Source: a virus. Taken from it: a stretch of 34,110 nt of DNA. This document shows positions 2,518 to 31,900 of this stretch, one piece after another. The first letter of the stretch is position 1. Every line of letters begins with the position of its first letter. The stretch is taken from IMG/VR virus record IMGVR_UViG_3300006803_000043, positions 1 to 34,110 of that record; one strand, written 5' to 3'. The notes below the pieces were generated by a model, which searched no databases, had not been told where the DNA came from, and saw only the letters and a program-made list of their open reading frames with translations. A program made the position numbers and the translations under genes.

Positions 2518-5500
2518 ATGAGTCTTACAATAAATGATAACATCTACTCAGATATAGCTTCTCAGTTTCCTAGTATATATCGGGAAGAGGGCAGCTTTCT
2601 TGTAGACTTTATTACAGCATACTACACACATTTTGATGCGACGAATGATAGAGATATTCCTAAGCTAAAAGATATCGATACTACGTTGACAACTTTTCTT
2701 GTTTACTATAAGAAGAAGTATCTTGCTGATTTGCCTATCGATACTGTTGTCGATACTCGTTTCATTATAAAGCATATCTCTGACTTATACAAGAGAAAGG
2801 GTTCTGAGGAGTCTCTGAGACTTCTATTCAGACTATTCTTTGATGAAGATATCGACGTATTCTATCCTAGCACAGCAATATTAAAGCCGTCTGATTCTGT
2901 ATTCGGTGGCGATACGTATCTTGAGATGTTGCCTGTATATACGATAGACAACTATCCTATACAGAAAGGCGATAAGCTAACTGGTAATGTATCGCTTGCT
3001 TCAGCATTTGTTGACGAGATAATCTTCGTTAACTTCTCGGGCGCACTATCGCCTATTATATATCTCTCAAACATATCCGGCAGCTTTATATCAGATGACG
3101 GTCTTACAAGAACAAGAGCTACTGTAGATTCATTGATCGGTAAGCTAATTCAAGGCAGCTTGAGTTCTATATCTGTTAGTCGTCTGGGTAGACAGCCTGA
3201 TCAGAAGATAGGCGATAAAGTAAAAGTCGTATCTACTCAGTCTGGTATTGATGCATCAGCATTTGTTACTGCTACGTCTACAGCAGAGACTGGATCTATA
3301 AACTACGAGATCACTGATGGCGGATTTGGCTATGCTGATCCCGTAACATCTTCTGCCTCAAACGATGTCGGTATCAGTAATCAAGTATTGATTGTCAAGT
3401 CTGATAATACTCAAGCGATTAAGACTGGCGATATAATCAACGCTTATGGAACGAATATCGTAACTACAGCTACTGGTGCTACAGCAGTCGCAAGCGGAAT
3501 GAAAGGTTCTGCTGTCGTCATTGCTTATGTACATCCTTTGTTGTATATCAAGACAATGAATAATGCTGATAGAATTGTCGAGCTGGCTAAGACATATACA
3601 GGCAACGATAATAATATTCTTCTCACTGAGTTGAATAGAGCTGTTCTTGGATCAGATCCTATATTGAGCGAAGTTAGTAAGATATATAAGAGCACACTTA
3701 CAATCGACGGCGTATATAGCGCAAGAAAGATTGGTGACATTGATGCCGACACGAACATAGATAACGATGACTTCTTAGCATTGACTGAATATATGCTCTA
3801 TGCAGCAGGATCATCGTACAACGCAGGAGTACTTACTGCGAGTAAGATAGAATTCATCGAATCAGTTCTGTTACCTCAACAAGGAGTCTATGACGACTTC
3901 GTTACATTGACTTCAGGTACACAGTCTCAGTTCATTGTTAATCACGATCCGAGTAAGACAGTAACTTTCTTAACCACCTCTGCATACAATGTATCATCTA
4001 GCTATACACTATCTTCGATTACTAACAGTGAAACTGTGACACTAATCACAGATCAAGTTGGGGACTTTGAGTCAGTAGTATTGAATGCAGGTACTATAGG
4101 TAATGCAGGCGATAACTTCGGCGGGGATGATGACTATGGAATGAGTGGATCTGGTGCTGAGAATATAGGCACTACATTAGGTGACGCATTCACACCAATC
4201 ACATTCACTATAGGCACAATCGACTCGCTTACATTAGTGCCTGGTGGCATAGACTACGAGAATGACGTATACTCCAATATAGAAAATTCTAGCATATTAA
4301 AGTTCAATAAGAAAGATATCATCTTTAACTTTCCAAGTACTGTTAATCTATCATTCAGTATTAACGACCAGATAACACAGGCAAGAAGAGTTGAAAATAT
4401 AGCCAATGTCGATATTACGTCGATCATAGTATCAAATAGCACTGGTAATTATGCGAGTGAGCCTACTCTCACTCAATCCGAAGGTAATACGATAGCGTAT
4501 ACAGCAAAGGCTAAGTTCGTCAAGAGAGTAGGTAACGACTTCTACTTCCGTCAGTTAAGCTTTTATGACTTCGACGACTCTAAGCAGATTAACTTCAATG
4601 GATTACTCGTTGATGTGACTGGTAGTACTCGTGACGCAAACTCGCTTCCCATGGGCGGCAACGCTGTTATAAGTGGTCAAGCTAGTTATGGTACTGGTCA
4701 AATTAAAGACATTAAATTAGAGAACACCGGCTATAGATTCACTGACGGCGAGACAGTGAATATTGTGTGCGACGAGATAGGAAGCTCTTCTTACGGAAAC
4801 GTAGTTGCGACTGCAAACGTGAGAGTACTAGGAACAGGATCTACTGAAGGAACATGGAAGACATCATCATCTTTCATAAGCGACAAAAATAAGAGAATAC
4901 ACGATAACGATTACTACCAAGAATACTCGTATGACATATCTTCTTCAGTACAGCAGAATAGATACGAAGGACTTATTAAAGAGACTATAGGCGTAGCAGG
5001 AACAAAACTCTTTAGCTCTTCTCTTGTAAGTGCAGTAAACAACTTCGATGTCGAGTTAGATGCTAGTATGGAATCATTCTATGTTAAGCCATTCATATTT
5101 GAAACGCAGTCTAGTCCAGTATTCTTGGGTGCGCCCAATGCTTCTGGCGTAAATTCATATGGCTCAAATGTTGCCATAGCAAGCACTACTGGAGACATCA
5201 CCTTTGATGCATTTAACCTTATCGGCGATGGCACAGTATATGCTCATGCCCTTGTAGGCGCATTAGCTGTTGGTGGAGGAAATGGCACTATAACAGGTTA
5301 CACTGGAGCAGTACTAAGCGGAGTTGCTATTAGTGGTACCTCTGGACAATTTACGTGTGATGCAACCACACTCACTGTAAACCAAATAATCAGTGTGACA
5401 GGTACATTTGACGGAACTTCAGGTAATGGAGCATTGGGAGGTGAAGCAGGCATATATAAAGTATCCTCTGTTACAGGAACCGCTTCTAACGTCACGGAAT

Positions 5501-6450
5501 TCACTCTAGTCGAGGCTAGAAATGCTATAGCAGGCCAATGGACAGCATCAACTTATGATGTGTCTCTAGTAACTGCCACAGGAAACACTGACGGGCTAAC
5601 ATTTGAGAGCGGTAAGTTATATTGGGGCGGTTCTGCTGTGTTTGACGGTAGTGGTCATCAGACAGGCATTAAGTTGTATGACATCCTTGATTTTACTACA
5701 ACACTGACAACCACTACCGGAACAACAACCGGCATAACGTATATTCCTGTAGGAAGTAGACAAAATCCTTTTGAGACAACTGTCGATGATGTGTTATTAG
5801 CTGGAGACGTACTTTCTCCAAACTCCACGCTCAAGACTAGATTCATGAGTAAAGTTGAGCTTGATTCTGCGTATGAGATTGGCGTTACAGATAATGCATC
5901 TATAAGCACCAGAAAATCTGCTGCGGATAATGAGTCTGCAAGCGAAGTGCTTATACCTTATCCAGTTCTTACTGCATATGATATATCGAATAAGTATAAC
6001 ACTATAGTTGGTACCACTCGCTTCAAAGACGACTCACACGAGGGTACCGAGGTACTTGAAGATAAAGTTTACATCAATCTATCTTCTAGAAATAATTGGA
6101 TTGGATATGATACTCTTGCTGTTAATATCAGTAGTAGAGATCAAACTTCTGGATTCAGATTTGCTATTGAAGCGACTGATGGCATAACAACTGCTAGGTC
6201 TGCCACAATTACTCTTCCTGCTTACAGTTCTACTAATCCCGAACAAGCTTTGTCCGCATCAATAGACATCAAAAATACACAGATAAATAGAAGTAATATA
6301 ACTATGGTCGCTCTGGTCTTTATACTTGATCCTTCAACACTTGACACTAGCGGCGAGACGTTTCCTAATGCCTATTTCCAATGGAAAATATGGTCAGAGG
6401 GCGCTCCTATAGTTGGAGAACTTCCAGCATACATTGAAACAGTGAGTTAA
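2518..6450 (+). CDS. 7: gp7-like large baseplate wedge protein
   Basis: A 1310-residue protein in the gp7 position between gp6 and gp8; T4 gp7 is about 1030. The first 130 residues contain LYKRKGSEESLRLLFRLFF, which resembles the P2 tail-protein-I type segment at the start of gp7-like proteins in marine T4-like phages. A segment near residue 790 with DNDYYQEYSYDI and a following VAGTKLF is also familiar from that family. In between lie repeated short motifs ending in G-x-x-Y (see findings), a dockerin-like calcium loop at residues 407-418, and one copy of the ISGTSGQF module at about residues 930-1010. Expected role: outer arm of the wedge, holding gp8, gp10 and gp11 equivalents. It begins three bases after the gp6 stop with no clear ribosome-binding site. 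The family call rests on position and N-terminal resemblance and is less certain than gp25, gp6 and gp8. Confidence 0.75.
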   Translation: MSLTINDNIYSDIASQFPSIYREEGSFLVDFITAYYTHFDATNDRDIPKLKDIDTTLTTFLVYYKKKYLADLPIDTVVDTRFIIKHISDLYKRKGSEESLRLLFRLFFDEDIDVFYPSTAILKPSDSVFGGDTYLEMLPVYTIDNYPIQKGDKLTGNVSLASAFVDEIIFVNFSGALSPIIYLSNISGSFISDDGLTRTRATVDSLIGKLIQGSLSSISVSRLGRQPDQKIGDKVKVVSTQSGIDASAFVTATSTAETGSINYEITDGGFGYADPVTSSASNDVGISNQVLIVKSDNTQAIKTGDIINAYGTNIVTTATGATAVASGMKGSAVVIAYVHPLLYIKTMNNADRIVELAKTYTGNDNNILLTELNRAVLGSDPILSEVSKIYKSTLTIDGVYSARKIGDIDADTNIDNDDFLALTEYMLYAAGSSYNAGVLTASKIEFIESVLLPQQGVYDDFVTLTSGTQSQFIVNHDPSKTVTFLTTSAYNVSSSYTLSSITNSETVTLITDQVGDFESVVLNAGTIGNAGDNFGGDDDYGMSGSGAENIGTTLGDAFTPITFTIGTIDSLTLVPGGIDYENDVYSNIENSSILKFNKKDIIFNFPSTVNLSFSINDQITQARRVENIANVDITSIIVSNSTGNYASEPTLTQSEGNTIAYTAKAKFVKRVGNDFYFRQLSFYDFDDSKQINFNGLLVDVTGSTRDANSLPMGGNAVISGQASYGTGQIKDIKLENTGYRFTDGETVNIVCDEIGSSSYGNVVATANVRVLGTGSTEGTWKTSSSFISDKNKRIHDNDYYQEYSYDISSSVQQNRYEGLIKETIGVAGTKLFSSSLVSAVNNFDVELDASMESFYVKPFIFETQSSPVFLGAPNASGVNSYGSNVAIASTTGDITFDAFNLIGDGTVYAHALVGALAVGGGNGTITGYTGAVLSGVAISGTSGQFTCDATTLTVNQIISVTGTFDGTSGNGALGGEAGIYKVSSVTGTASNVTEFTLVEARNAIAGQWTASTYDVSLVTATGNTDGLTFESGKLYWGGSAVFDGSGHQTGIKLYDILDFTTTLTTTTGTTTGITYIPVGSRQNPFETTVDDVLLAGDVLSPNSTLKTRFMSKVELDSAYEIGVTDNASISTRKSAADNESASEVLIPYPVLTAYDISNKYNTIVGTTRFKDDSHEGTEVLEDKVYINLSSRNNWIGYDTLAVNISSRDQTSGFRFAIEATDGITTARSATITLPAYSSTNPEQALSASIDIKNTQINRSNITMVALVFILDPSTLDTSGETFPNAYFQWKIWSEGAPIVGELPAYIETVS
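3736..3771 (+). other. Dockerin/EF-hand-like calcium-binding loop inside the gp7-like gene
   Basis: Residues 406-418 of the gp7-like protein read GDIDADTNIDNDD and run into FLALTEYML. Candidate calcium ligands fall at loop positions 1, 3, 5, 7, 9 and 12 (D407, D409, D411, N413, D415, D418), followed by a hydrophobic helix, as in one half of a type I dockerin. I see only one such loop, not the usual pair. Calcium binding is inferred. Confidence 0.7.
5308..5550 (+). repeat. ISGTSGQF module, copy A (in the gp7-like gene)
   Basis: This encodes an approximately 80-residue beta-rich module with AISGTSGQFTC, then a VTGTF strand, KVSSVTGT and FTLV. It shares a 28-base identical stretch (5327-5354) with copy C in the gp8 gene (9456-9483); copy B has one mismatch over the same stretch. 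The edges are approximate. Confidence 0.8.
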
Positions 6451-6459
6451 GGAAAGAAT

Positions 6460-7629
6460 ATGTCTACACTTATATTTACTACCGACCATGATCCCTTTCC
6501 GGCTAAAGCTGGAGATAACTTGGTGAATAATGGTAGTACAGCCAGAACATTTTCTGATAGTAGAAGTATATCTGGCGATGTCAGTAAAACGTATACAATA
6601 AGCTATCTGGGAGGCAATGGTGTCGTAGATAGTCCTCAAGATGTGACTGCGCCTATATCATATGTACCAGGAACAAATCTCACTGGAGTTTCTATTAGTG
6701 GTACCACTGGACAATTTACTTGTTCAGCCGCGACACTTAAGGTAGGCGACATAGTAACGATTAGCGGCACATTTGGTGGCTCAGGATCGATCAATAACTA
6801 TTCTCCTGGCATAGGGCTAGTGAATGCAGTCACAGGCACCTCGCCTAACGTAACAGGCTTTACGCTAACTACATCAGCAGGCTCTGCACTAACGACCACA
6901 GCAGGCACTCCAACAGGACTGACCTATGGAGTGCAACATTCATCTCCCGAGACATTAAGCGTTTTACTTTCACATGCGGTAGGCATCACATCTAATGGTG
7001 TGCTGATAATGCCACCATTTACTAGAGACATTGGCTTGTTTGGAAGTAGTCCAGTAGCCAATGCTCCTTTAGGATTCAACTGGGACGTAGTACATAAAAA
7101 CGAAGACTTTAACCTAGATCCGTGTGATGCCAAGCCCATAGATAATAGCGATACTAGCACAGATATATACACGTATAGATCTGGTAAGTTCTTGTCTTCT
7201 GGATGGGATAGCGTATTCACAGCCAGCTCGACATATTATACTTCTGGTCTAACTCATGCAGATGGGCACTCTAAGATTGTTGGTATATCCTTTGATGGTT
7301 ATCCAATATATGGACCTAAAGGATATGCGACACCTACTGTTAAGGGATCTGTTGTTTCTATGACAAGCTCTTATGTACTGAAGACTCAGGTCTCATCTGG
7401 TAGAGTGTTTAGCTTTGCACAGCAGAGTAATGGATCCTTTATACAAGACTATGAATATGTGGCTAATCTAGGATCTTTAGACGAGCATAACGGAAGATAT
7501 TGTGTTACTCCAGATTATCCCAACGGAACATACGCATACTTTATCAGCACAAAAGGTGACGGAAGTCCTAGTTATCCTTACATAATTGGACCAACAACGA
7601 AAGCACAGAGAACAGTAGCGATTACCTAA
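6460..7629 (+). CDS. YHYH-domain virion protein
   Basis: A 389-residue protein whose C-terminal two thirds match the YHYH domain: a conserved HADGHSKIVG, then GISFDGYPIYGPKGY, then SLDEHNGRYCVTPDYPNGTY. The domain is found in marine phage structural proteins and in bacterial and eukaryotic secreted proteins; its biochemical role is not settled. Residues 73-157 are a copy of the ISGTSGQF module placed before the YHYH domain. The gene starts nine bases after the gp7-like stop, and AAGGAAAG (6449-6456) overlaps that stop codon. Its position between gp7-like and gp8 suggests a baseplate-arm decoration or host-contact protein. I cannot assign an enzymatic activity. Confidence 0.8.
   Translation: MSTLIFTTDHDPFPAKAGDNLVNNGSTARTFSDSRSISGDVSKTYTISYLGGNGVVDSPQDVTAPISYVPGTNLTGVSISGTTGQFTCSAATLKVGDIVTISGTFGGSGSINNYSPGIGLVNAVTGTSPNVTGFTLTTSAGSALTTTAGTPTGLTYGVQHSSPETLSVLLSHAVGITSNGVLIMPPFTRDIGLFGSSPVANAPLGFNWDVVHKNEDFNLDPCDAKPIDNSDTSTDIYTYRSGKFLSSGWDSVFTASSTYYTSGLTHADGHSKIVGISFDGYPIYGPKGYATPTVKGSVVSMTSSYVLKTQVSSGRVFSFAQQSNGSFIQDYEYVANLGSLDEHNGRYCVTPDYPNGTYAYFISTKGDGSPSYPYIIGPTTKAQRTVAIT
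6676..6930 (+). repeat. ISGTSGQF module, copy B (in the YHYH gene)
   Basis: The encoded segment contains SISGTTGQFTC, LKVGDIVTISGTF and a closing VTGFTLT...GTPTGLTYG. By direct comparison 58 of 65 bases match between 6691-6755 here and 9455-9519 in the gp8 gene (copy C), including the 20-base block GCCGCGACACTTAAGGTAGG. That is far closer than the genes are elsewhere. Confidence 0.88.
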
Positions 7630-7642: not shown

Positions 7643-9952
7643 ATGGCAAAAGTAATAACAGAAAATTTTAGGATTGAGAACACGAACGAGCTGTTTACTT
7701 CGTTCAAGAATCTCAATGCTTCTTTGGGAGAAAACTTCACCACGCTCTTGGGCAGCTACAATACCTCAGCTAGCCTAGGATTAGGTGCTGATGATACGAC
7801 TGCGATCAGAGGATTCGTTGACGACCAGTTAAATGCTCTTAGACCAGAAGCAAACTATTACATAATGGCATCGTCAATTGATAAGACAGCCGGCATAGTC
7901 AATACGCAAAAAGAGAAGCGAGACTTTCAGAGACGGGTGGTGTTTGGAAATAAAGTCGATGTCGCAGACGTTAGATATATGTTCTACGAGAATAGCTGGA
8001 CGACAGGTACCATATACGACGATTATGATGATGTGCAAGATATCGCAGTCGCCAATAGTATAGTGACTGTAAAGGACGATCAAGGAAATTATTATATCTA
8101 TAAGTGTTTAGATAATAATAACGGCACTGCATCAACCGTTCAGCCTACATTCTCTAATATAGATTTAACAACATATATCTCTATCACTAGCAGTGACGGA
8201 TACGTATGGAAATATCTTTTCACTGTATCTGACTCTGATGCATTGGTATACAAGACTGTTGATAGTTTACCTTTGCCTTATCCAGATTATGGAAACACTG
8301 ACGTTATCTCTTCTGCTAAAGAAGAAATCTCTCAGATAATAGTAGAGCAAACTCCATCTGCACAATTTAACCAGTTCTTATTTGGACAAGCAACGGGTGC
8401 GGAAAATGGATCAGATGTAACTCTGGTATCAGAGGTTGCAAGAACTGATGGTAGATTTAAAGATGTCGTCGTTAGTATAACTCCTAAAACTGGTCGAATT
8501 CTAGCTCAGGCTAGTAATGCGTATAAGGGAATGTATTTAAGGTCTTCTAACGGAAAATTATATGATGTGGTCACATCAAGTACTCCGTCAGCCGATACGA
8601 TAAGTGTTGCATTAGAGACTACAGACACAATTCAGGGCGCAGGAGCTACAGGCAAACAGTGTCAGCTAGTTATCAAAATAAACGTTAGCAATAGCGATCT
8701 TTCAGGAACTCCTTGTTTGGCATACGGAATCATAGATGCGTTAGGTACATTATCTAAGGTAGCATTCGCTGAAAGAGGATCAAACTATAAATTCGCTAGT
8801 GCCGAGGTGATTTATCCTGAAATCATAACTGTTCCTGGACTCACTGCTCTAAGGGCAGTAGTGTCGCCTACTGGCGGCCATGGATTTAATCCCATATCAG
8901 AAATGGCCATGAGTAGACTTGCTATACTCACAGACTTTAACGGTGAGTCTACTACAGTGCCAGATTCTAACTATTACACTAAGGTTGGACTTATAAAAAA
9001 TCCTACATTTATAAACAGCTCCACTCCTACTTCTTTTGATAATAGAGCATCGTTAACGTTCGTAGGGCTATCAAAGGCTACCAGCTATCCTGTAAATCAC
9101 TTTGTCACACAACACATTCAGCCTGTAGACGTTAGGGATTTACAAGACTCAGAAGAGTATATCATAACCGATCTTGGCGTAAACTCTGCCGACGGAGTTC
9201 TTCCTACAACATTGGCTATGACACTAGCCGACTGGACAGCATTAGGATGGACTACTGGATATTCTGGAGACTCTGTGCCATCACTTGGAAGTAAGTTCAC
9301 TTCAAGTGGGACTTCTGCATGGAAAGCATCAAATGTTACCAAACGAGGCAAGGTATCCAAGGCTATATCAACTCTCACCGGTGCTTCAGGAGAAGAGACT
9401 GTTGTCGCCAGAATACACGAATCCCTCTTAGGAGGAGGAACGTTAAATAGTGTCGCTATTAGTGGTACCTCTGGACAATTTACTTGTGCGGCCGCGACAC
9501 TTAAGGTAGGAGATAGAGTTCTTGTTGACGGTACGTTCACTGGCACAGGATCGATCACGGGACACACGTCAGGCACTAGATATCTAGTGAGTGCTGTTAC
9601 AGGCACCTCACCTAGCGTAACGGGCTTTACTGTAACAGCAACAGGTGGTGGCGCAATAGTGACTGTAGAGGGCAACACAGTTGGCGCAACATTTACCTCT
9701 GAGAGCGACACTGTAGTTAGGTTAGTTGACTATAAGGGTAACTTCAAGAGCAAGCTACATATTGGACCTATACAGATTAGGTCCACACTTACAGCAGCCA
9801 ATGTCAGTACGGATAGTATAAATACAACTGACACCATAACTTATGGATCATATAACGAATTTAGTGGAGAGCTTCTTCACTTCATGGACTTTGATCCTAT
9901 AGAAAGAACTGCGACTCGTAAAGAGAAGATAAAGTTCATATTTGACTTTTAA
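7643..9952 (+). CDS. 8: gp8-like baseplate wedge subunit, enlarged
   Basis: A 769-residue protein, more than twice the length of T4 gp8 (334). The gp8 identity comes from several short matches in the right order: WTTGTIYDDYDD (119-130), NYYIYKCLDNNNG (149-161), DGYVWKYLFTV (185-195) and a C-terminal block LLHFMDFDPI...EKIKFIFDF that lines up with the end of T4 gp8. gp8 dimerises on the wedge arm and helps hold the tail-fibre network. The extra length includes a GSNYKFASAEVIYP segment, a Y.I..LG...W module (about residues 500-572) and an ISGTSGQF module (about 600-686), both placed shortly before the conserved C-terminus. The start follows the YHYH stop by 13 bases with a modest AAGAG site. 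The last 140 bases contain a perfect late promoter box. Confidence 0.93.
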   Translation: MAKVITENFRIENTNELFTSFKNLNASLGENFTTLLGSYNTSASLGLGADDTTAIRGFVDDQLNALRPEANYYIMASSIDKTAGIVNTQKEKRDFQRRVVFGNKVDVADVRYMFYENSWTTGTIYDDYDDVQDIAVANSIVTVKDDQGNYYIYKCLDNNNGTASTVQPTFSNIDLTTYISITSSDGYVWKYLFTVSDSDALVYKTVDSLPLPYPDYGNTDVISSAKEEISQIIVEQTPSAQFNQFLFGQATGAENGSDVTLVSEVARTDGRFKDVVVSITPKTGRILAQASNAYKGMYLRSSNGKLYDVVTSSTPSADTISVALETTDTIQGAGATGKQCQLVIKINVSNSDLSGTPCLAYGIIDALGTLSKVAFAERGSNYKFASAEVIYPEIITVPGLTALRAVVSPTGGHGFNPISEMAMSRLAILTDFNGESTTVPDSNYYTKVGLIKNPTFINSSTPTSFDNRASLTFVGLSKATSYPVNHFVTQHIQPVDVRDLQDSEEYIITDLGVNSADGVLPTTLAMTLADWTALGWTTGYSGDSVPSLGSKFTSSGTSAWKASNVTKRGKVSKAISTLTGASGEETVVARIHESLLGGGTLNSVAISGTSGQFTCAAATLKVGDRVLVDGTFTGTGSITGHTSGTRYLVSAVTGTSPSVTGFTVTATGGGAIVTVEGNTVGATFTSESDTVVRLVDYKGNFKSKLHIGPIQIRSTLTAANVSTDSINTTDTITYGSYNEFSGELLHFMDFDPIERTATRKEKIKFIFDF
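9136..9362 (+). repeat. Y.I..LG...W module, copy 1 (in gp8)
   Basis: The encoded segment contains EEYIITDLG, later ADWTALGW, then SLGSKFTSSG and a closing RGKV. It is a divergent copy of a module seen again in three other genes of the window (14511-14665, 19321-19502, 29998-30171). This copy is longer between the LG and W landmarks. Edges are approximate. Confidence 0.6.
9442..9699 (+). repeat. ISGTSGQF module, copy C (in gp8)
   Basis: The encoded segment contains AISGTSGQFTC, LKVGDRVLVDGTF, TRYLVSAVTGTS and VTGFTV. It shares 28 identical bases with copy A and is close to copy B along most of its length. It sits about 24 residues before the start of the final conserved gp8 region. Confidence 0.88.
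9817..9824 (+). promoter_or_regulatory. Possible intragenic late promoter (TATAAATA)
   Basis: A perfect TATAAATA lies inside the gp8 reading frame (reading through as S-I-N-T), 143 bases before the start of the 5.5-kb DUF4815 gene. Position and exact match fit an extra late promoter boosting the downstream genes. A chance match in AT-leaning DNA is also possible. Confidence 0.4.
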
Positions 9953-15611: not shown

Positions 15612-17014
15612 GCACAAATAACATAGACGATATTGCTAACGGCACAACTTTCGGAGTTTGGAGAGATAGAACAAACGCATTAATCGACCATGCTAACAAA
15701 GGAGTCACACTGGGAGACAGTGAGACGAATGCGGGTAACATCAAGCTTAACGGAGACATAGTTCTAGAATCCGGTCATGAGATCACAGTCGATAATATTA
15801 CTGCTCAAGGCTCTACAATAACTCTTGATAAGAATCTTCTGCTAGATGACGGTAATATTAGAATAGACGGATCTGCTGCAACATCTCTAACATTCTCTCT
15901 AGCCGGTGTGACCAAGTGGACACAACAAACTAGCGCAGACCATGGATACTTTGAGATTCTTGGGGGAACTAGATCACTTAGAATAAATAATAGTGGAACG
16001 GATGTTGGCAAAATCACTGGCGCCAATTTAAAAATAGATGACGCTCTATTGCCAGACACCATCACCTCTAACCTTACTGGCAATGTCACGGGTAACTTGA
16101 CTGGCGATGTCACGGGTAACACATCAGGCTCTTCTGGATCATGCACAGGTAATGCAGCTACAGCCACAACACTAGCTACTAGCCGAACCATAGGCGGAGT
16201 AGCATTTAATGGTAGCGCGAGCATAAACTTACCGGGTGTTAACTCTACAGGTAACCAGAACACATCAGGCACGTCTAATGGTCTTACATCTGCCGCACTC
16301 AAAACTATATTAGAGTCCATTTATCCTGTAGGCGCTATTTACATAACTACGAAGGATGAGAATCCATACACAACCTTAAATGTTGGTACTAACTCCGCTA
16401 GTTGGAAAGCATTCGCACAAGGTAGAGCAATCGTAGGTGCAGACACTACGGGTATATCGATAACACAGGGCAGCCATGATGGCAGTGTTGCGACCTTTAC
16501 TGTAGACGTAACTGGTCTAGCAAATGGTAAGCATCCTATGTCTATTGGCGATAAGGTGACCATATCGGGAATAACCGGATGGCAATATTATGATCCTAAC
16601 TCCTCAAGTAGAACTATTACAGCTATAAGTAACGACACTATCACCTGTCCATTCTCTGAAGGTTCGGTGGAAACATATTCAGGATTCACAAATGCTGTTG
16701 CCATTCAGGAGCTATTTGCTGTAGGAGATAAGCGCGGGTACACCGGACACGAGTTAGCTCAAGATGAGATGAATCATAACCACAAATGGTATGATCATGG
16801 TCCAGGTAATAGTTGGAGCATCGACACAACAAACAATGCCGGTAGTAGTTCAAGTTATAATTCACAAGGAACATTGAGCGATATATCATCAGGAGAGCTT
16901 GAGTATGATTATCACACTCAAGAAAATAGACTTGCGAACTCGAATAATAGACCTGAAACTCACAACAACCTACAGCCATATATTGCGACTTACGTATGGA
17001 AAAGAGTTAGTTAA
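15608..17014 (+). CDS. Tail-collar (short tail fibre-like) protein
   Basis: A 468-residue fibre protein. The N-terminal 150 residues are a repetitive beta-rich shaft with low-complexity LTGNVTGNLTGDVTGN, followed by TLATSRTIGGVAFNGSASINLPGVN, a segment common before fibre heads. The head begins with the tail-collar motif SIYPVGAIYITT and AFAQGRAIVGAD and continues with KRGYTGHELAQDEMNHNHKW, ending in LQPYIATYVWKRVS, the usual terminus of T4 gp10/gp12-type collar heads. In T4 gp12 the HxH motif of this head binds a metal in the trimer; N-H-N-H is present here. Between the two halves of the head lies a 75-residue insert (about residues 294-370). It begins by overlapping the small coiled-coil gene through ATGA. 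Receptor binding or irreversible attachment is inferred. Confidence 0.88.
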   Translation: MSTNNIDDIANGTTFGVWRDRTNALIDHANKGVTLGDSETNAGNIKLNGDIVLESGHEITVDNITAQGSTITLDKNLLLDDGNIRIDGSAATSLTFSLAGVTKWTQQTSADHGYFEILGGTRSLRINNSGTDVGKITGANLKIDDALLPDTITSNLTGNVTGNLTGDVTGNTSGSSGSCTGNAATATTLATSRTIGGVAFNGSASINLPGVNSTGNQNTSGTSNGLTSAALKTILESIYPVGAIYITTKDENPYTTLNVGTNSASWKAFAQGRAIVGADTTGISITQGSHDGSVATFTVDVTGLANGKHPMSIGDKVTISGITGWQYYDPNSSSRTITAISNDTITCPFSEGSVETYSGFTNAVAIQELFAVGDKRGYTGHELAQDEMNHNHKWYDHGPGNSWSIDTTNNAGSSSSYNSQGTLSDISSGELEYDYHTQENRLANSNNRPETHNNLQPYIATYVWKRVS

Positions 17015-17066: not shown

Positions 17067-20000
17067 ATGGCAAACAAAAAGTTTACAGAATTAGCATCGA
17101 TTAACAGCACTACTATAGTAGCGACTGACGTTTTTGCTGTTACTGATATATCTGATAATCAGTCAAAGAAAATAACATTAGCTGACTTGAGCTCCTCTAT
17201 ACTGACCGCTGAAATATTCATTCAAAAGGCAGGCTTAATAGTAGGCGGATTAAACGCATATGATCCCGATGGCAATGGTTCGAACGGATTAAGAGCGACG
17301 ACACTATTCGCTAACAGTGGATATAAAGCTGGATCATATTTTCTAGACTACAATAATTTTGTGAATAAGCCTCCTACCGTAGGCTCTTCTCCCAAGATCG
17401 TATCTGATCTAGGGGATCTGGCAAATAATTCAGGATTCATTAAGTACGACTCAACAGATGCTAAGTTAAGGTATACAACTAATAGTCTCACTATCACAAG
17501 TGATAATATTAACGAGGGTACGCTAAATAAGTTTTACAGTGCTGACCTTGTAAACGCATTGATTGAAGACTCATTCGCTAATTTGTTTAATACATATAGC
17601 GACTCATTCGATAACGGAGACGTTAGAGACAGCTTAAACGAAACTGCGGGACTCTTTGTCGATAACGGACAATCTAGTAAGATATTAATCTCCGACACAT
17701 CTCTTGTTCCGAACTACTCAATTGGCGATTCAGTAAGAGTCTTCGGTGCGTCTATAGCAGAGGCTGTAGGATCTATACTCGACGCAACTAACTTGACAAC
17801 TGCCGCAACCGCGAGTGGTTTTACTACTACTGGTCATGGTGCTGGTGATACTCAAGTTGTTATAAATTATAAAGTGTGTAAATTTGATACTATTACAGGC
17901 GTTATAGGATCAGCAAGTGCTGCTGTGCCTATTACAATTTCTAAGACAGGTGTGACTACTGGAAATGCTGATGTGTTATCGGCCTTCAATACAGACTACT
18001 TTATTAGATTAGCCTTTACTGGATCAGAAATTTCAGTTGCGAATAGAGGACTAGCGATATATCGACAAGTTGGAGGAGCAGGAGCATATAAACTACTCAC
18101 TGTTCTTGGACCTAAAGAGTTTGGTCCGACAGGATCAAATCTATGGACAGACTATTATACCTTTGATTACACTAGTTGGTCAGGCAAAGATCCTTTAGAT
18201 AACAGCTATAGTTCATCATATCCAATCACACACTTTCCTGTAACTCCACCGGCTACTGCACTTAGAGGTTGGGCTGATACGTCAATATCTTCTATCGATA
18301 CCACAACCTCGACTAGCACTTTCACGATTAATCTTTCTACTGTACTTTATATGAATAGTGATAAGATAGTCTCTGTTACACACAATGATACCGCTGATAT
18401 CGCAACTGCTATCAGCACAAAGGTTGCTGTTAATAAAAGAAATTTACAGCTAAATCCTAAGACTTATATTGTGACGACATTATCTCTTCCTGACAACTTC
18501 AGCTTAGCCGGTTCTCCTAATGTCACTAAGATATTAAGAATGCCATGGTCTGGTGGAGAATCTGGAACAACACACTCAAACATAATCAAGTCTGCAACAA
18601 CTGTTAATGCAAAAAATATATCTATAGTTGGAGTAGACATAGACGGCAACGTTAGTAATCAGTTTATCTTTCCAGATAGTTCGTCACCTGAGACGAACTA
18701 TCTTCTAAACTTTGGCACTCAGTCTCTAGGCGTTATTTTAGATCGATGCAGAATTAAGAATTCAGCAGGCGGAGGAGTATTTGCGACTTTTCCTGTGGAA
18801 ATAAAAATCAATACCTGTGAGATCAGCAATGGATCTACTAGTGATAGATTTGCATATTCTCCACTAGTGATAGATTCTGGCACAAATACGCAAGTTATTG
18901 GCAATATAATGTCAAACTTCTCAGATAGTGTCAATGCTTCAGTAACAACTAGAGGTGTTATCACTAACAACATGATACGGAATTGCGGAAGTGGTCTGTA
19001 TGTATATGGATCTACATTCCTTCTATCGTCTCCTAATGTGTTGACTGGCCCGGCTAACGAATTCTTACCTAATCCTGATATTCTTAATAGTGAGTTCGAC
19101 TCGATAAATATTACATTGACTAATGGTCAGACATTCACTAGTCCAGATTTCAAGTATCAAGAGAACGGAGTAGACTTCGCACTAGATCAAACAGCAACCG
19201 GTGGTGTATCGGCAGAGATAATACACAAGGCATTCTACCTTCAGAAAAATTCTTCTGGCGTAGAAAGCCTATACGGTACAATCAAAAACGCAGCCGATTA
19301 TAGCGCAGACAGCGCAACCGGTCTTAAGCATGGAGTTCGCTACACTATCATTGATCTAGGCGACACAGACTTTACTGAAGGCAACAATGCTGTAGTTAAC
19401 TATATAGGGGCAGAGTTTATTTATGATGATGGCGACTCTGGTAATTTAGGTAGCGCACTATTCACTGGAACCGGCACAGTCTCTAGTGGAGCACAAGACG
19501 CTATAGTTCTTAGTAATAGGTCTATCGATCAATCTACTAAACCAGGCGAATTTGGATTCCAGATCACTAACACATTGTCAACAAAAATTAAAGATGCTGC
19601 TGGTCAATTCTCATTCGATACTCTGAAGGCAGCAAATGCTAATCACGTTGGAATGGGGTGGTCTTCTTCGTATCGAAATGAAGTCGCACTAGCTACGCTA
19701 GCCAATGGCCAATGGGAATCAAATGTCGCTGAAAATGTTGACGAGGCCAATAAAACCTTTAATGCAGCTAGTTCTGTGGACGCAACAGTAAAAGAATCTA
19801 TAACTATCAGTAGTCATGGATATAGTATAGGCGATCAAGTAAAATATAAAAGTGGTGGCGGCACTGTTGTTGGTGGTTTAATCGACAACGCAGTTTACTT
19901 TGTATCTGGATGTGACTATGCTGTTGGAGAACTACGCCTGGCAGACACATACTTAAAGGCTCTCGGCACGACATTATCAACTGCTAATCTATCTATCAGC

Positions 20001-20618
20001 GGTACAGCAGGCCAATTCCTTGCTGCCAGTGGTATATCACTGAACATAGGCGATAGAGTCACGATCACAGGAGCGATCACTGGTGGCAATATTACAACTC
20101 CATCATACACTGCTGGACCACTTGTATGTAAAGTGTCTGCTGTAACAGGCAGTGAAGGCGCCAGAAGCGGATTCACTTTAGTACAAGAGAGTGGCCCAGG
20201 CACTGCATTGGTCACAGTGATAGGATCTGGAGCCGGTCTAGTTATAAAAAGACACGAGATACTAAACTTAACCGATGGTGTTGGAACATCTCACTCATTA
20301 AACAGAGCGGGTAATAACCCTAGATACTCTGTGGACGCAACTGGCATCAACAATAAATATTTACATATCGGTCAATTCGTCAAGTTGAGTAGTGGTCACA
20401 CAGGCTTCAATACAGATACAGGCATTAAGTATGGTGTTATTCAGAATATCACTGGCACCGGAAATACGAGAAGAGTCTTCATAGACTTTATTGGGGGCGG
20501 CAGAATATTCATCAATGGACAACCTGGTGGAGGCACTAACGGCTTAGTAGCAGGCGGCTCTGGCGGAACAATAAATACAATCGATACTTTTGTGATGGCA
20601 CAAGGTACGATAACTTAA
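17067..20618 (+). CDS. Beta-helix tail-fibre-like protein with inserted modules
   Basis: An 1183-residue protein. It starts with KKFTELASINSTTIVATDVFAVTD, a typical N-terminus of phage fibre proteins attaching to the baseplate or another fibre. Residues about 462-672 look like a right-handed parallel beta-helix: short strands such as NISIVGVDIDGN, GVILDRCRIKNS, VEIKINTCEIS and VITNNMIRNCGSGLYVYGS, as in pectate-lyase-like fibre domains. After it come a Y.I..LG module (752-812), an HGY...VKY module (about 911-1082) and, nested inside that, an ISGTSGQF module (about 970-1060). The C-terminus is Gly-rich (FINGQPGGG...GGSGG). I see no catalytic residues I could assign, so polysaccharide binding is as likely as cleavage. 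It is the first gene behind the second late promoter. Confidence 0.78.
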   Translation: MANKKFTELASINSTTIVATDVFAVTDISDNQSKKITLADLSSSILTAEIFIQKAGLIVGGLNAYDPDGNGSNGLRATTLFANSGYKAGSYFLDYNNFVNKPPTVGSSPKIVSDLGDLANNSGFIKYDSTDAKLRYTTNSLTITSDNINEGTLNKFYSADLVNALIEDSFANLFNTYSDSFDNGDVRDSLNETAGLFVDNGQSSKILISDTSLVPNYSIGDSVRVFGASIAEAVGSILDATNLTTAATASGFTTTGHGAGDTQVVINYKVCKFDTITGVIGSASAAVPITISKTGVTTGNADVLSAFNTDYFIRLAFTGSEISVANRGLAIYRQVGGAGAYKLLTVLGPKEFGPTGSNLWTDYYTFDYTSWSGKDPLDNSYSSSYPITHFPVTPPATALRGWADTSISSIDTTTSTSTFTINLSTVLYMNSDKIVSVTHNDTADIATAISTKVAVNKRNLQLNPKTYIVTTLSLPDNFSLAGSPNVTKILRMPWSGGESGTTHSNIIKSATTVNAKNISIVGVDIDGNVSNQFIFPDSSSPETNYLLNFGTQSLGVILDRCRIKNSAGGGVFATFPVEIKINTCEISNGSTSDRFAYSPLVIDSGTNTQVIGNIMSNFSDSVNASVTTRGVITNNMIRNCGSGLYVYGSTFLLSSPNVLTGPANEFLPNPDILNSEFDSINITLTNGQTFTSPDFKYQENGVDFALDQTATGGVSAEIIHKAFYLQKNSSGVESLYGTIKNAADYSADSATGLKHGVRYTIIDLGDTDFTEGNNAVVNYIGAEFIYDDGDSGNLGSALFTGTGTVSSGAQDAIVLSNRSIDQSTKPGEFGFQITNTLSTKIKDAAGQFSFDTLKAANANHVGMGWSSSYRNEVALATLANGQWESNVAENVDEANKTFNAASSVDATVKESITISSHGYSIGDQVKYKSGGGTVVGGLIDNAVYFVSGCDYAVGELRLADTYLKALGTTLSTANLSISGTAGQFLAASGISLNIGDRVTITGAITGGNITTPSYTAGPLVCKVSAVTGSEGARSGFTLVQESGPGTALVTVIGSGAGLVIKRHEILNLTDGVGTSHSLNRAGNNPRYSVDATGINNKYLHIGQFVKLSSGHTGFNTDTGIKYGVIQNITGTGNTRRVFIDFIGGGRIFINGQPGGGTNGLVAGGSGGTINTIDTFVMAQGTIT
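19321..19502 (+). repeat. Y.I..LG...W module, copy 3 (in the beta-helix fibre gene)
   Basis: The encoded segment contains GVRYTIIDLGDTDF, YIGAEFIYDD and LFTGTGTVSSG. The tryptophan is replaced by phenylalanine (TDF). It follows directly on a polar linker after the beta-helix. Confidence 0.7.
19797..20312 (+). repeat. HGF/VKY module interrupted by ISGTSGQF module (copy D)
   Basis: The outer module starts with SSHGYSIGDQVKYKSGGG and VGGLIDNAVYFV (residues 916-950) and is completed by EILNLTDGVGTSHSLNR (residues about 1063-1080). The two parts align with one continuous stretch in the next gene (HPFETGQPVKY through DLTSGGSGTDHALL, about 24304-24520). Between them, at 19974-20247, sits an ISGTSGQF module with SISGTAGQF, LNIGDRVTITGAI and KVSAVTGS. 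This is a domain within a domain. Confidence 0.72.
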
Positions 20619-23600: not shown

Positions 23601-25031
23601 GCTTCATACTACATCGATGGTGGCGATAGAGGTACAGTAAGACTCTATAGTCATAATAATGATAGTTCAGTATCAGCATACGGTAGAAAGTTCACAGGCG
23701 ATGGCGACTGGTCAAACGAGTCAGAATATAATGCCGCGGACACTCTGACTACAATAAGTAGCGCCAATAACGAGACATTGGCATCAATCGATTGTGCGCT
23801 CGCAGATACAGACACACTAGTTGCATCATCCGCAACTCAAATAAATCCTAGATTCTTCATGGGCGCTAAATTACTAACTAATAATCCAGTGGATCAGAAT
23901 GTTAAAGTAATATGGGCAGATGAAACTAAAGTCTATCTATCTTCTGTGCCTCTAGGTGCACCATCAGCATTGATTGCAGATAGAGCAGCCAACGTATTCG
24001 GCATTCAAACTAAGAAGACTATACTAAGCACTCAAGAAGGTAACGCAGTAAGAAACAGAGTTCAAGTATATCCTACTAAACTGTCTGCTTCAAACACAGC
24101 AACCGATGCCACTCCTGTTAGACTTAGATTCAGAAAAACACCTAAGTTTCAATATTCTTGCGAGACTACTGGTAAAGTATCGATTGACACTGCTGACTAT
24201 ACAGTAACCACTGCAAACATTGCTATACCTCTAGTGAAGAATGTTAGTGTAACAGGTCTAAGTGCCACAGCGTTTGCTACTTCAGATACAGTGACAGCTA
24301 CTGCTCATCCATTCGAAACTGGTCAACCAGTTAAGTATAGCAAGGGCAGTGCTGGTAATACAGAAGTAGGCGGACTAGATGATAACGTGGTATACTATGT
24401 AAACAAAACTGGCGCAAATTCGCTGAAGCTTTACACCACGGAAGCACTCGCCCTATTGGGTGGCACTGCGATCGACCTAACATCAGGCGGTAGTGGTACG
24501 GATCACGCACTACTAGCACCAACTGGAGATTACATAGCAGACGGTAAGAGTGTGTATGGTTGGTTTAGAGGTAAAGTAGGAAACGATAAAGTTACTGTAT
24601 TCGGTAGACTTTATAGAGTTGCTACTAACTACTTCTTTGAAGTGTTAGAGTCATATAACGGCACTATAACATTGTTTAAAGGACAGAGATTCTTACCTGA
24701 TCTAAACTTCAGAGCTACAGGCGAGCAACAGCCATTGACCATTGATGAAGCGGTCAACTATACAGAGAAAGAAGGGCTAAGTTCAGTCAATATCGCTCCT
24801 AGAACTATTGTTCCTATTCCAGGAACAGGGGTAAACGTAGCGACTATATACTTACAGCCTGGAACAGAACAGATTGATCTTGCTACATATTTCGACTATA
24901 ATAAAGAATACCTATCATTCCCATTAACGAATGAAGCTGATACTCTTTACTTTTCAGTCGATTCTGATCAACCCGCAACGTTCGCTGGCAGAGATGAAAT
25001 AAGTCTGGGTGTAACTTGGGAAGAACAATAG
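20628..25031 (+). CDS. VrlC-like virion structural protein, paralogue 1
   Basis: A 1467-residue protein. Landmarks in order: LLGIPRAEVALGIFADVNTY (about 60-79), FRYQPGRVSAATFG (about 132), FSVVRRSQ, two helical repeats with a C.RD..Y.ID core (KCLRDADYWIDFF near 303; KCQRDVGYLIDGY near 476), HVTFGQTIKY, PRSRFSHDVLNG (about 825), VTMLKIEFSWYGAVGALFLA, KYGASYYIDGGDRGT (about 990) and an HPF...VKY module (about 1227-1298). I associate this landmark set with proteins called VrlC in T4-like cyanophages; the biochemical role is unknown to me. A virion surface or fibre-associated role is inferred from context. The ribosome-binding site AAGGAAGGA overlaps the previous stop. The next gene is a diverged tandem paralogue. 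Confidence 0.72.
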   Translation: MSSITNVNNNSSVVNVGRTTPVSPGAQTSDKSIPVVVATDQTAIPVVEQNKVQSEVALSLLGIPRAEVALGIFADVNTYDVNPSEWSSSPAYHIGSSTASEQGHGIKHLPTEAGALVEAPRNKVAVLTSKRFFRYQPGRVSAATFGIKSTVGTQGADGTEYSPNPSIRKFGIYDNFDGYFWETRNNSLGDNFSVVRRSQALLKCPNTTFGIGGTTTYRGDSTDGTGPTPTIPTTQIDDYRIIGKGKPESGAYTDVVPQLSSDRKILEDNRFTIITTANAALPANFYTLLDTELNNTETEATLEAKCLRDADYWIDFFLLDMEWGGLAHTKINGTNYATAILPAPDTYEKVFYLHLKNALLASSNGFSSAGITKLTTLIDLLVGAGNTTGNATATGAVSSSNGGASGIFNKSTAGANVHTALITDYGNKNKIDTIFDAKKHYWAYLVTTKDAAGDAIVYTVGVAGLSSGLEAEDLKYKCQRDVGYLIDGYKNDIVGGGDAETVYNMSMFFKASGMSIYSQSISGSSGEAVAAGTAGAILSERERYTHLRAKILASLDDTIFGYVNGAADGVYDKVESLLDMTVANFISEHSTTMSYGSRGYAGNLVAMRDGLIVTHAAVYDPSLLKDANPIVTVIESDSDDKLKLTKGHVTFGQTIKYVSGTIGGLTPGTLYKVARVYGPKGNIFKLIKADPALASTAVAISGSNTGVFELVVPFIFPKDYDNKVYNAASFTSNVLGVSVDSVSGIDIPAGPVFPYAYSSTDDLTSDDSTNKTIGFINTARDLSVPAQFEFFRTEMDSINFYPEYINWIKNNVKPEYWGVYDYRVPRSRFSHDVLNGIAASSALAKNRVYSDLATAPDGTVARPGKGYAATVGGVVEKQSSEYNFDFTKVTMLKIEFSWYGAVGALFLAYVPVANGEARWVRVHHLRASNQLKIASLGNATLPITYTTYGGGESAATTVGRTSGTRTLTLGDGETNVDKGYGSSSNHIVKYGASYYIDGGDRGTVRLYSHNNDSSVSAYGRKFTGDGDWSNESEYNAADTLTTISSANNETLASIDCALADTDTLVASSATQINPRFFMGAKLLTNNPVDQNVKVIWADETKVYLSSVPLGAPSALIADRAANVFGIQTKKTILSTQEGNAVRNRVQVYPTKLSASNTATDATPVRLRFRKTPKFQYSCETTGKVSIDTADYTVTTANIAIPLVKNVSVTGLSATAFATSDTVTATAHPFETGQPVKYSKGSAGNTEVGGLDDNVVYYVNKTGANSLKLYTTEALALLGGTAIDLTSGGSGTDHALLAPTGDYIADGKSVYGWFRGKVGNDKVTVFGRLYRVATNYFFEVLESYNGTITLFKGQRFLPDLNFRATGEQQPLTIDEAVNYTEKEGLSSVNIAPRTIVPIPGTGVNVATIYLQPGTEQIDLATYFDYNKEYLSFPLTNEADTLYFSVDSDQPATFAGRDEISLGVTWEEQ

Positions 25032-25034
25032 CAT

Positions 25035-28000: not shown

Positions 28001-28910
28001 TGCTACGCAGACTGACGATAATTTCGTCACAATTGTAACGACAAATCCCCATGGACTTCCATACACTCGGCCAGATGGTCAAGTGTCGATTACTTTTAGC
28101 CTTACCGGCTTCGAGGATGGAATTGTCGAGATAAACGGTGTGGCGACCAGCAATTCCATAAACGACCCTGGTCAAGTATCGCCTTCGAATGTCATCATTG
28201 ACAGCACCAGTTTCCGGATTGTAGAGCCCCACGCGACAGGTAGTACTGGTATTATAGGCAATACTTATCCTTCAGGATCAGCTAAACTTACTCAGACTAG
28301 ATACGTCTTAGTATCCGCAGATACTCTGCCGATTACTATTCAGAGTAAAGTCTTAACACTTAGCGATGACTTTAAGGTTGAGGGATATGATAATCAAGAT
28401 CCACCAGAGCGTATGTTTGGAAATAGAAGCTTTAGTAAAGTACAGGCACTTGCCTTTGATGACGCTCCTTTATACTTATTCTTTGCACTAAAGGACTACG
28501 CTAAAGTTAATAATATAAGTGTCGAAGAGATATATCCTACAGGCACAGTAGCGCACACACCTCAGTTTATAAAGGATGCATCCGCAGATAACTCCAGCCT
28601 CGATCTTGCGGTTTCCAGTGAGGGAGCAGTAGCGAGTAAATCTCCAGCATCATTCAATGAAGAGTCAAACCTATCTCCAACATTATTTGACTTGACAACA
28701 TTGAATCCATTGAGACCAGGAAATAGAATATACTCATTCTACGCTGCTGCAGGTAAGCCTACACAATTAGATTTACAGAATATCTTCGGCGTAGATAGAA
28801 AGAAAATATCCAGAGGTCTGTATAATAATTTAGCTACATACTTCACAGCAACAAAACTTACTGCTGGTAACGGCAACATAGAAATGACGCTAACAGTTAA
28901 GGAACAATAA
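25035..28910 (+). CDS. VrlC-like virion structural protein, paralogue 2
   Basis: A 1291-residue protein that shares with the preceding gene, in the same order, LLGVPRAEEQLSLFSDVATY (about 85), FRYQPGRVSGFTFG (about 337), FNIVRRST, PRSRFNGDALSG (about 430), VTMYKIEFSWYGAIGAKFYA (about 453) and KYGSSYYIDGGDEGT (about 528). It lacks the C.RD..Y.ID repeats. It has its own 250-residue N-terminal part with aromatic-rich sequence (YSIFNFYPSTQVF) and a different C-terminal half with a TTNPHGL...GQVSITFSLTGF module (about 1000-1070). The gene starts three bases after the previous stop with GGGAAGAAC upstream. Its last base is shared with the next start (TAATG). Most likely an ancient duplication that diverged in the accessory parts while the core stayed. 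Confidence 0.72.
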   Translation: MSKQIKIGLDKLPAPLTKQYTQLIDLEGLPLRDAAGNPLVSEGSGSLGIFNSAQNALSTYVNAEKETALPIAEQFPEVSAVSNSLLGVPRAEEQLSLFSDVATYGLDEDAWNQYTFTQTSNIPPEWYKKKHPIYGRRENPSFNEGSEEQALYLRNFSTQYSFPTGTIASRKTEPTPAFRKYINFILMGKYLYSIFNFYPSTQVFAKKYLLDNDVYFLTPDNETDENPISFDTVSRVFDGQQDFHDVGYGNYNGTGVLTNDIQSVFDKIEAWTYLFGLIQDGTAQFPNLPANNSQNITGRFVDSELYKAIKVFCVPINCVPGGISDSVKIAVLESKDTFRYQPGRVSGFTFGTRLENDSSSNANFLEFGASNDTDEYMFQLRGSEFNIVRRSTLPLGGALLERQGLPATAETLTRQKGLGSSESLYETIIPRSRFNGDALSGNGKSGYVLTFEDVTMYKIEFSWYGAIGAKFYAYVPIGPGECRWVLIHRLVIENGMGKPVLKNPDLKFKYIVYSGDSGGLTKPSFLYKYGSSYYIDGGDEGTNTLTTISSNSKSFASTGTPIIGVKPKNVIFNSDISYTGDGVTNYKKIYPLTVSASSDQDCRIDIVQVAGSPDGAHYCYQPSIHNGKHGLSRENLTFKWSSDGTSLTLQNGATFNASDKNAKVIGDGIYGVYVNGAVGEDASTIYRRNIATGPSYISLITGGAGRLGSVKSYTSYDGQTVTQTINEPTFTGRLSNYHAVAASTTPINASKFKIHFLNPRAKDAASTKHFAEFAVGVTPHKPKLVNAAGVDRLKFEIDAATESTSAIDQDFDLYEYPYVEYAHNQVRYWIRDNSDAYEDDIGYGDQMSVDPRIPNPEGSDSGYISTVQGTVDSIDYIVTTSTKIDDASSAYDNKYKIEFNNDPNLGTTGTPTGIIVPTNFAEGISELGVNGASLDPRVYFISEVTPAAGVTPAFAYVSTAAADSADPFASLSSSGDVLQPFVFETTIVSATQTDDNFVTIVTTNPHGLPYTRPDGQVSITFSLTGFEDGIVEINGVATSNSINDPGQVSPSNVIIDSTSFRIVEPHATGSTGIIGNTYPSGSAKLTQTRYVLVSADTLPITIQSKVLTLSDDFKVEGYDNQDPPERMFGNRSFSKVQALAFDDAPLYLFFALKDYAKVNNISVEEIYPTGTVAHTPQFIKDASADNSSLDLAVSSEGAVASKSPASFNEESNLSPTLFDLTTLNPLRPGNRIYSFYAAAGKPTQLDLQNIFGVDRKKISRGLYNNLATYFTATKLTAGNGNIEMTLTVKEQ

Positions 28911-31900
28911 TGGCAGTATTACGGGGTCTAAATTTATCTAGAAATCTAGGAGATGTGGACGATAAGGCCGCTGCTCTTATCAACTTAGGTCTCTCCGCTG
29001 GTGATATACAGTTAATATATAAACTGACCGATGCGAGTGGTGAAGACTTAGCGGTAACTGTTGATGATATACACACCTTATCAAATCTAAAGGTGGATCA
29101 AAAGAAAGACTTTTTTAGTATAAAAGAGTCCTCTGACGATGTAGGAAGAGAAATACAAAATATCAGTGATATAGCTGTTCCTCTCCAACATAATATGCGT
29201 ATAAACAATCAGATTAACACTAACTCATTGAAGTACAATTATCTGAATCTTACCGCAGCCAACGCGGCTGCAGCCGATGCGATCAAGAAAGCAGACGTTT
29301 CTACTTCTAGAGTATCATCTTGGTCAGAGCTAAGTACCGGTAATATTTCATACTCTGGCGAACTGAAGGTCATAGGCGATAAGATAACTTTACTCGGCGC
29401 AGGAAAACTATCTACATCGACTGCACCTATACCAAGAACATTTAGAGCGGAGTCTCCTACACATAGAGTTACTGTCAAGATAAACGGCGCAGATAAAGAC
29501 TTGGTAATGATGAAAGGTATTCCTTTAATATTTGAGGGATATTTTAAGAAGGCAGTTCTGAATGGTCGAGGTGTTAACACAGACGATAGATTTCGTGCCG
29601 CAGTTACTGCTGTAACTGATACTGCTAGTACAGATGGAAGAGGTGCACCTAACAACACTGTGCCGGTGACCTTTAGAATAACGAATTTGGACTCTGGAGG
29701 TCTTGTCTACAGTAGCGGAGATGACACCACATTGAATCCTGGATCTATAGGAAGTTCCGCAGACGTAGATTTTCCCGTATCATTCTCATTGTCTGACACA
29801 CGCGATAGAAGTAGAAAAATCGAAGTATTCTACAATCCAGCTAAAATTTTGATGTTAGGACTAACTAATAAGAATATAAACACCTGGACTAATGTTTCTC
29901 TGCCTGCACTAAAGAACCTAGAACTAGATCAGAATGATCTATATGTTGTTCCTAGCTTCAGAAGTGTTGATGTGCCACAAGGTCTTAACGTAGCAACCAA
30001 GCCCCTCATCAAGGGAAACAAGTATGTTATTGTTGCACCAGGAAACACATCAGATACAATCTGGGGCAATGCTGGCGCAGAAGCGTATGTAGCAGGCACA
30101 GAATTTACGTATACTGGAGCGGCAACGAGTGGTACAGGCACAGTTAAGAAGTCTAAAATGGCTCCAGACGGTCTAGCTCCTGTAATGGAAGTGTTGAAGA
30201 TTCCAGGAAATAATCTATCTAGAGCAAGAACACTTGATAATGAGGACATAACTGGCACGCATCAACTGAATAGTCTTCCTCTAACTATCAAAGAATTGGA
30301 CTTTAGCGGATGCTTTGCAGACGACGATATAATAGACTTGATCGACTATACAGCTTTAAAAAAACTCGACTTCGATTCATTCTATGGATCTGGTAGTTAT
30401 CGCTCAATGGTAGGAGGTGCTACCAATAGAGTCACTCCTAATGTATATGTTCCTGATGTAGCGGGCACAGGATTAGGTATAAAGTCATACAGAGTATGGC
30501 GAAATGATGTATATCAGAAGTTAGCGGAAGGAGTATATGCAAGCCAACGACTAGAGAATCTCGATTTATGGCAATCGACATCATCAGCAGGTTTAACTGG
30601 CGCAGAAAATATACGACTAGAGGACTTTAAGTTTACTGGTACATCTGGAACGTGTACATTTACAGCAATAGCAAACTGCTTAGAAGTAGGAGATGAGGTT
30701 CAGATTGTGGGCGCCCTTCCTAGCAACACTAATGATATTACATCTCCTGATCACACCAGCGGCACATACTATAAGATATCAGCGATAACGGTATCGGTAG
30801 ATGGAGAAATTACAGGAGCTACACTACAGACACAGGCTCCTGCTAGTGGTACACTAAATACGGTCGCTTCAACAACAGCAATTGCGGCTACTGTATTCAT
30901 AAGAGCATATTCTGACTTCATTCCTATTCCTAGAATAAATGTAGCATCTAGAAGCACATTAAAGACTATTAGACTCAATAGACAACGATTTAATGTATTG
31001 GACGTCAGAGACTGTACATCACTTACAAGCTACGAGCAAGCATATAGCGATTACATTGATAGTGGTAAATATACAGCAGCACAGAGATCGGTCGAGAGTA
31101 AGTTCAGTGGATGCAGCTCATTATCAACCATAAATTTTCTGGAGAGCGGCTCTATATCTGGTAGTATCACCACAGCGTTTGCCAGCCTTGCCAAGTTAAG
31201 CACATTGAGATTAAATAAAACGGGTGTTACTGGACAGATAACAGACGCAACATTCAACGGAACAACAGAGTTGAAGAATTTATATCTAGAGGGCTCCACT
31301 CTAGGAGTCGCCGGGCAAAGCTTTTTCAGCACAGACTGTTTTGAGAACACTAGCCTGATTAGACTTGATGTTCGAAACTCGGTTAACGTTACAGGATCTT
31401 TACCAAGTCTAACAACTCAAACGAATTTACAATATATATACCTATTAAACAATAGCATATCTGGAGGTTTGCCAGACTTCGCAGAAAACACAATTCTTCG
31501 TGATATCTATATCACTGGAAGAGTGGGCGGTAATTCTAGCGACTCTTTGCCTTCAGTAGTCGTTAAATCGGGCACCACAAACGGCACTTTCACTACAGCC
31601 AACATATTCTCAGTAGCACAGAACGATCTCATAACTGTGTCAGGAGATATATCAGGCTCAGCCACAATAACTGGATACACTAACCCTACAATATATAAAG
31701 TTAGTGCTGTGAATGGCAACAACTTCACACTCACAACAATTGGTGACGTAGCTATAGTGACTTCTTTCGGTGACGTAGGAGGTCTAGGCAGTCTAGGACT
31801 ATCTTTCGACACAACACCCAGTACAGGATTGACTGGTGGAATACCTGGTACAGGATTTACTGTTCGAGGAACAACAAGTAGGGTAGACCTTTCAAATAAC

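Follow-up and report, generated by a model that had tools for sequence, protein, structure and literature searches.

How one small protein part comes to lie in five tail genes of a single phage, and what the phage might gain from it, is the question raised by the DNA analysed here, a window of 34,110 nt (IMG/VR record IMGVR_UViG_3300006803_000043, positions 1 to 34,110). In the window, which is the tail region of a myovirus of the T4 superfamily, the gene order gp25-gp6-gp7-gp8-VrlC-like is the same as in Sinorhizobium phage phiM12, and gp6 is 40% identical to that of phiM12. Between gp7 and gp8 sits a YHYH gene (6460-7629), which phiM12 lacks at this place. The window virus was also found in contigs of other assemblies at 99.7-99.9% identity. 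Rfam and tRNA searches of the window gave no match. An earlier sequence-only reading had placed six copies of a module of ~85 residues in five tail genes, and all six are present and in frame: a profile HMM built from these copies and widened with relatives found each of them in the window (E 1e-12 to 2e-29, each below 1e-11). Copy A, for which bounds of 5308-5550 had been given, is real and extends beyond 5550 to ~5604. The copies are as follows.

5311..5604, + strand: module copy A, in the gp7-like baseplate wedge gene 2518-6450 (HMM E 4.7e-19)
6673..6927, + strand: module copy B, in the YHYH gene 6460-7629 (HMM E 2.3e-29)
9440..9700, + strand: module copy C, in the gp8 baseplate wedge gene 7643-9952 (HMM E 1.1e-28)
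19974..20246, + strand: module copy D, nested in an M2 barrel (see below), in the gene 17067-20618 (HMM E 2.1e-17)
30617..30895, + strand: module copy E, in the LRR gene 28910-32320 (HMM E 1e-12)
31547..31801, + strand: module copy F, in the same LRR gene 28910-32320 as copy E (HMM E 3.3e-17)

A fold shared by all six copies had been named as a check on their kinship. Copy C received a confident prediction, an all-beta barrel (AF2 with copy C and 41 relatives, 42 sequences; pLDDT 97.4), and the other copies are tied to it by sequence homology. AF2 and VIA-align place the module in the FCCH / P22 I-domain-like class of barrels (about 75-90 residues). The best VIA-align match of the copy C model was the FCCH domain of Uba1 (ubiquitin E1; Z 7.0, rmsd 2.4, 74 residues), and the best matches also include phage head-tail/tail-tube chains (Z 6.8 and 6.7), residues 285-369 of the LKA1 tailspike chain (Z 6.7) and V-ATPase N-terminal barrels; as Z values below 8 are at the level of chance matches among common arrangements, a common fold with FCCH/LKA1-type barrels is likely, and common descent does not follow. 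In addition, two viral predicted structures, both from uncultured phages, matched strongly (TM 0.85 and 0.89), and the module sequence profile matched 6mnt, a phage 'putative coat protein' entry of P22 type (E 1.4e-4, profile 7-64). Foldseek against the PDB returned no match below E 0.6. With 42 modules, no Pfam family reached its cut-off and E1_FCCH (PF16190) was not among the matches at E<=1; PHROGs matches of the modules were few and weak. A tblastn search of single modules against 50,697 phage records found no match at thresholds up to E 1, although masking of the query by the low-complexity filter may account for this, and a scan of genome contigs for relatives, a limited test, gave none.

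That the module is an inserted part can be read from gp8. The window protein has ~87 extra in-frame residues between '..ARIHES' and 'VVRLVDYKG', and gp8 of a related phage (contigs L014/L016, with stretches aligned at 71-75% DNA identity) reads '..AKIHESIVEGSNTKVKLVDYRG' at this site, without the module. The gp8 orthologs of four further lineages (48, 48, 40 and 33% identity) are also without copy C. Since copy C is missing from gp8 in five other lineages, with a clean empty site, we regard it as an inserted part, and by parsimony it was probably gained in the lineage of the window. The related phage carries the module at both the A and the B site, with copy A at the position of its first copy, plus one extra copy in gp7 and none in gp8. 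The gp8 insert thus lies within a host fold that exists without it, as in a phage insertion domain, and the same holds for a second gp8 series in which the insertion can be followed step by step. Among three phages of 90-92% DNA identity, one gp8 gene was found in three states, with a second barrel type alone (M2, in L073), with M2 interrupted by the module (M2[M1], in L058) and with a further module within the inserted one (M2[M1[M1]], in L080). This amounts to a natural record of domain insertion in one gene of closely related phages, from empty through one insert to a nested insert. The gp8 gene of L058 (8978-11707) also has repeats of 'GGSGYSTAPxVxIxGDG', another type of repeat that these tail genes have in common.

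The more striking feature is this nesting, which the sequence-only reading had missed. The module (M1) is often split, in contigs of related viruses, into matched halves enclosing one or more whole copies, and the split falls at profile 28-36, the loop that follows the strand of model residues 28-33; a gp7-type gene of L058 reads full(full(full)). Exceptions to the matched halves are L067 (contig end), L073, L085 and L090 (permuted or partial), L043 (partial fragment) and L132. In L073 (11138-17491, aa 1880-1975) and L085 (5274-6260, aa 78-164), the module looks circularly permuted, with the last strands before the first. In four contexts the module breaks the M2 barrel (recognised by '..HGF..GD.V.Y..') at one and the same loop, namely in window copy D, L017 and two L058 genes, the copy D nest itself being present in L017 and L058 as well. 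M2 was defined from the first profile rounds only, later M2 profiles being contaminated by the module, and a mixed M1/M2 alignment, which was misaligned, was left out of folding. In one hhalign comparison M1 and M2 matched at E 1.3e-4 with a probability of 27%, which is suggestive only of a relationship between the two barrel types. The window holds these M2 parts and, around copy A, a possible decayed outer module.

5164..5307, + strand: possible decayed outer module, N-terminal half, interrupted by copy A (weak; profile 1-42, E 0.34)
5632..5742, + strand: possible decayed outer module around copy A, C-terminal half (weak; profile 49-83, E 0.66)
19776..19973, + strand: M2 barrel, first part ('SSHGYSIGDQVKY'), interrupted by copy D, in the gene 17067-20618 (M2 profile E ~1e-21)
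20247..20312, + strand: remainder of the interrupted M2 barrel ('HEILNLTDGVGTSHSLN'), from the alignment of five nested proteins
24267..24527, + strand: uninterrupted M2 barrel, in the gene 20628-25031 (M2 profile match)

At the place in L016 that corresponds to 5164..5307, a profile match of E 0.08 was obtained. The nested model of the copy D region (five sequences) was of low confidence (pLDDT 62) and was set aside for this weakness. Promiscuous phage domains are a known kind, and the presence of copies in several genes of one genome together with self-nesting at a fixed loop is an undescribed variant in the literature searched. It is possible, though we hold it doubtful, that the module's own loop acts as a standing landing site at which recombination repeatedly puts barrels into barrels, so that tail proteins grow; no description of protein growth by self-nesting was found in the literature searched.

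We consider it probable that the module is a promiscuous insertion domain of the virion, spread by ectopic recombination and kept for a likely benefit in adhesion or stiffening. A small beta-barrel of this kind would enter loops of tail proteins whole and in frame, leaving the host protein fold intact on both sides, and its targets would include loops of its own kind of barrel, which would give copies nested in copies. Each new gene or loop may have been entered initially by a rare in-frame joining, and afterwards copies in different genes of one genome would swap sequence and nested cargo through ectopic homologous recombination or gene conversion. The host proteins that could be named are virion structural proteins, i.e. 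baseplate wedge, gp8, VrlC-like, tail sheath, head closure and tailspike. Most likely, the barrels decorate the particle and are exposed on the virion. We infer that their benefit is adhesion or stabilisation: extra surface barrels on baseplate, sheath and spike would probably be kept for adding weak contacts to the host surface or for stiffening the particle. In two tail sheath proteins (L046 9215-11158 and L062 414-2399), the module sits at two different positions.

The main rival to this reading of decoration and benefit is neutral or selfish growth, in which insertion of a barrel is harmless, recombination copies it and the phage gains nothing. The ends of the barrel probably lie close together, which would make its insertion harmless, and there are copies inside copies, where a specific function is unlikely; moreover, presence and nesting vary among phages that are 90-92% identical, and the possible outer copy in the window looks decayed. 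Against this stand the residues of the module fold, which are conserved across loci from many metagenomes, and the nameable hosts, which are virion structural proteins just as with phage Ig-like domains; for these and for extra sheath domains, weak adhesion or stabilisation has been proposed (PMC9230969). On balance, we regard growth without benefit as rather unlikely.

The DNA of the copies bears on how an insertion domain with such a benefit would have spread. The sequence-only reading had described the copies as near-identical in DNA. Copies A and C share an exact block of 29 nt, one more than had been counted (A at 5326, C at 9455), and copies B and C share the reported exact block of 20 nt (B at 6727, C at 9491) and match at 58/66 bases rather than 58/65; these two blocks are the longest exact repeats of the window. 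Direct exact repeats of at least 16 nt in the window comprise the A/B/C blocks only, plus one 9-nt tandem repeat. Over whole modules, DNA identity is 68% for B/C, 61% for A/C and 57% for A/B, so that near-identity holds for short blocks of A, B and C, but neither for entire modules nor for D, E and F. Codon resampling, with the proteins kept and window codon usage, reached the 29-nt run of A/C in 0/1500 trials (maximum 22), and the B/C value of 70/90 exceeded the maximum (69) of 4000 trials; A/B gave 63/90 against 54.4 +/- 2.8, and B and C had an excess of identical codons (z 4.3). The DNA shared by A/C and by B/C is not explained by protein conservation plus codon usage. The flanks, which were to be compared with the modules as a check on copying, are at or near background past the first 30-60 nt, below the similarity within A-C.

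These data argue against old paralogy, i.e. ancient duplications whose DNA similarity reflects only protein conservation and codon bias. It would be in line with the A and B sites common to the window and L014/L016, and with copies D, E and F, which show no excess of identical codons relative to A-C. Yet for A-C it is rejected by codon resampling, copy C is new to the window lineage, and the DNA of B resembles that of C (68%) more than that of its positional counterpart in L016 (61%); we consider old paralogy as the sole explanation very improbable. Among ~180 modules of other phages, the nearest DNA relatives of A, B and C are one another, C being closest to the window's own B and A closest to C. 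A+C forms a supported clade (100/93), and modules cluster by phage (15 changes, against a minimum of 19 and a mean of 22 in 300 label shuffles). Together with the empty gp8 site, this upholds the earlier view that copying, not common descent of whole genes, accounts for the shared module. As the DNA similarity among A-C is patchy and the A+B+C clade is unsupported (65/1), the direction of copying among the three is not fixed. The claim of recent copying is thus partly supported: it holds for A-C and across the family as a whole, and for D-F it is unproven.

Nests themselves appear to have moved between genes. The gp8 nest of L080, taken as 303 nt with both junctions, aligned end to end with nothing but its own group and gp7-type nests (83-85% for the gp7-type genes of L058, L064, L068 and L071); un-nested copies aligned partially, mostly inside the module. 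The same nest structure is therefore present in two unrelated genes, and from these alignments nests appear to move between gp7 and gp8 genes by recombination, as expected if homologous recombination runs through the shared halves of copies. In addition, a 40-nt block in the C half of the outer copy in L080 recurs in the insert that this copy carries and is not shared by the L058 counterpart, a pattern expected from gene conversion. In L132 (7017-10670, aa 332-451), the inner copy ends as outer C halves typically do and the remainder is gone; one C half seems to have been deleted by recombination of the inner with the outer one.

A dedicated mobile DNA element read in frame by chance (a transposon, an intein or a hidden homing endonuclease) would also give in-frame insertions with a patchy distribution, both of which are known from the ShiLan insertion in phage methylases (PMC11855218). 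That insertion hides an out-of-frame HNH nuclease, whereas none was found in the module: in 66 modules, alternative frames were open no more often than under codon resampling, and hidden ORFs were rejected on this ground. No nuclease or splicing ORF lies within the insert, the L058/L073 junction is clean with no target-site duplication seen, the module spans only ~260 nt (~85 aa) with no Pfam match, and its ends are the ends of the domain. With no hidden reading frame, nuclease or target duplication found, a dedicated element is hard to credit. Equally implausible are nests made by metagenome assembly, given that, although every locus is a metagenomic contig and assemblers are misled by repeats, the same nests were found again in independent assemblies (L058-L061; L080-L082) and in other phages (L064, L068, L071), nests are always in frame with matched halves, and window copies A-C were found in other assemblies too.

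The insertion domain favoured here has known relatives in kind. Residues 285-369 of the LKA1 tailspike (gp49) have been described as an insertion domain with the P22 coat I-domain and the V-ATPase barrel as structural kin (PMC5701251); like the module, the LKA1 and P22-type barrels are six-stranded barrels inserted in a virion protein, but they are described as a single insertion in one protein, whereas the module has many copies in unrelated genes, some of them nested. Phage Ig-like domains are likewise promiscuous and pass between structural proteins of phages, and a role in adhesion or stability has been proposed for them (PMC9230969). The structural matches listed for the copy C model are barrels, with no Ig sandwich among them, which does not in itself weigh against an Ig-like fold. 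The module units differ in sitting within loops of their hosts, in nesting, and in the DNA that copies in separate genes of the same genome have in common. Smug et al. (2023; PMC10684548) reported that unrelated phage proteins, chiefly receptor-binding and baseplate proteins, have recent homologous domains in common, as is the case for the module; their survey compares proteins across phages, whereas the module copies belong to a single genome and come with empty sites and nests built in steps.

One part common to unrelated tail genes of one genome indicates that copying a part between genes is a way for phages to construct and remodel their tail proteins, and gene conversion can confound domain counts and phylogenies of such genes. 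The origin of in-frame domain insertions and the effect of extra barrels on phage attachment become testable questions. Besides, the gp10-like protein of the window (16508-16651, residues 301-348) gave a weak Pfam E1_FCCH match (E 0.016) and may hold another barrel of this fold class. An imperfect 24-nt tandem repeat in the gp10-like gene (16069-16120) gives 'LTGNVTGN' repeats, and a 9-nt tandem repeat of 3.1 copies lies at 33767-33794 in the minus-strand gene 33357-34100.
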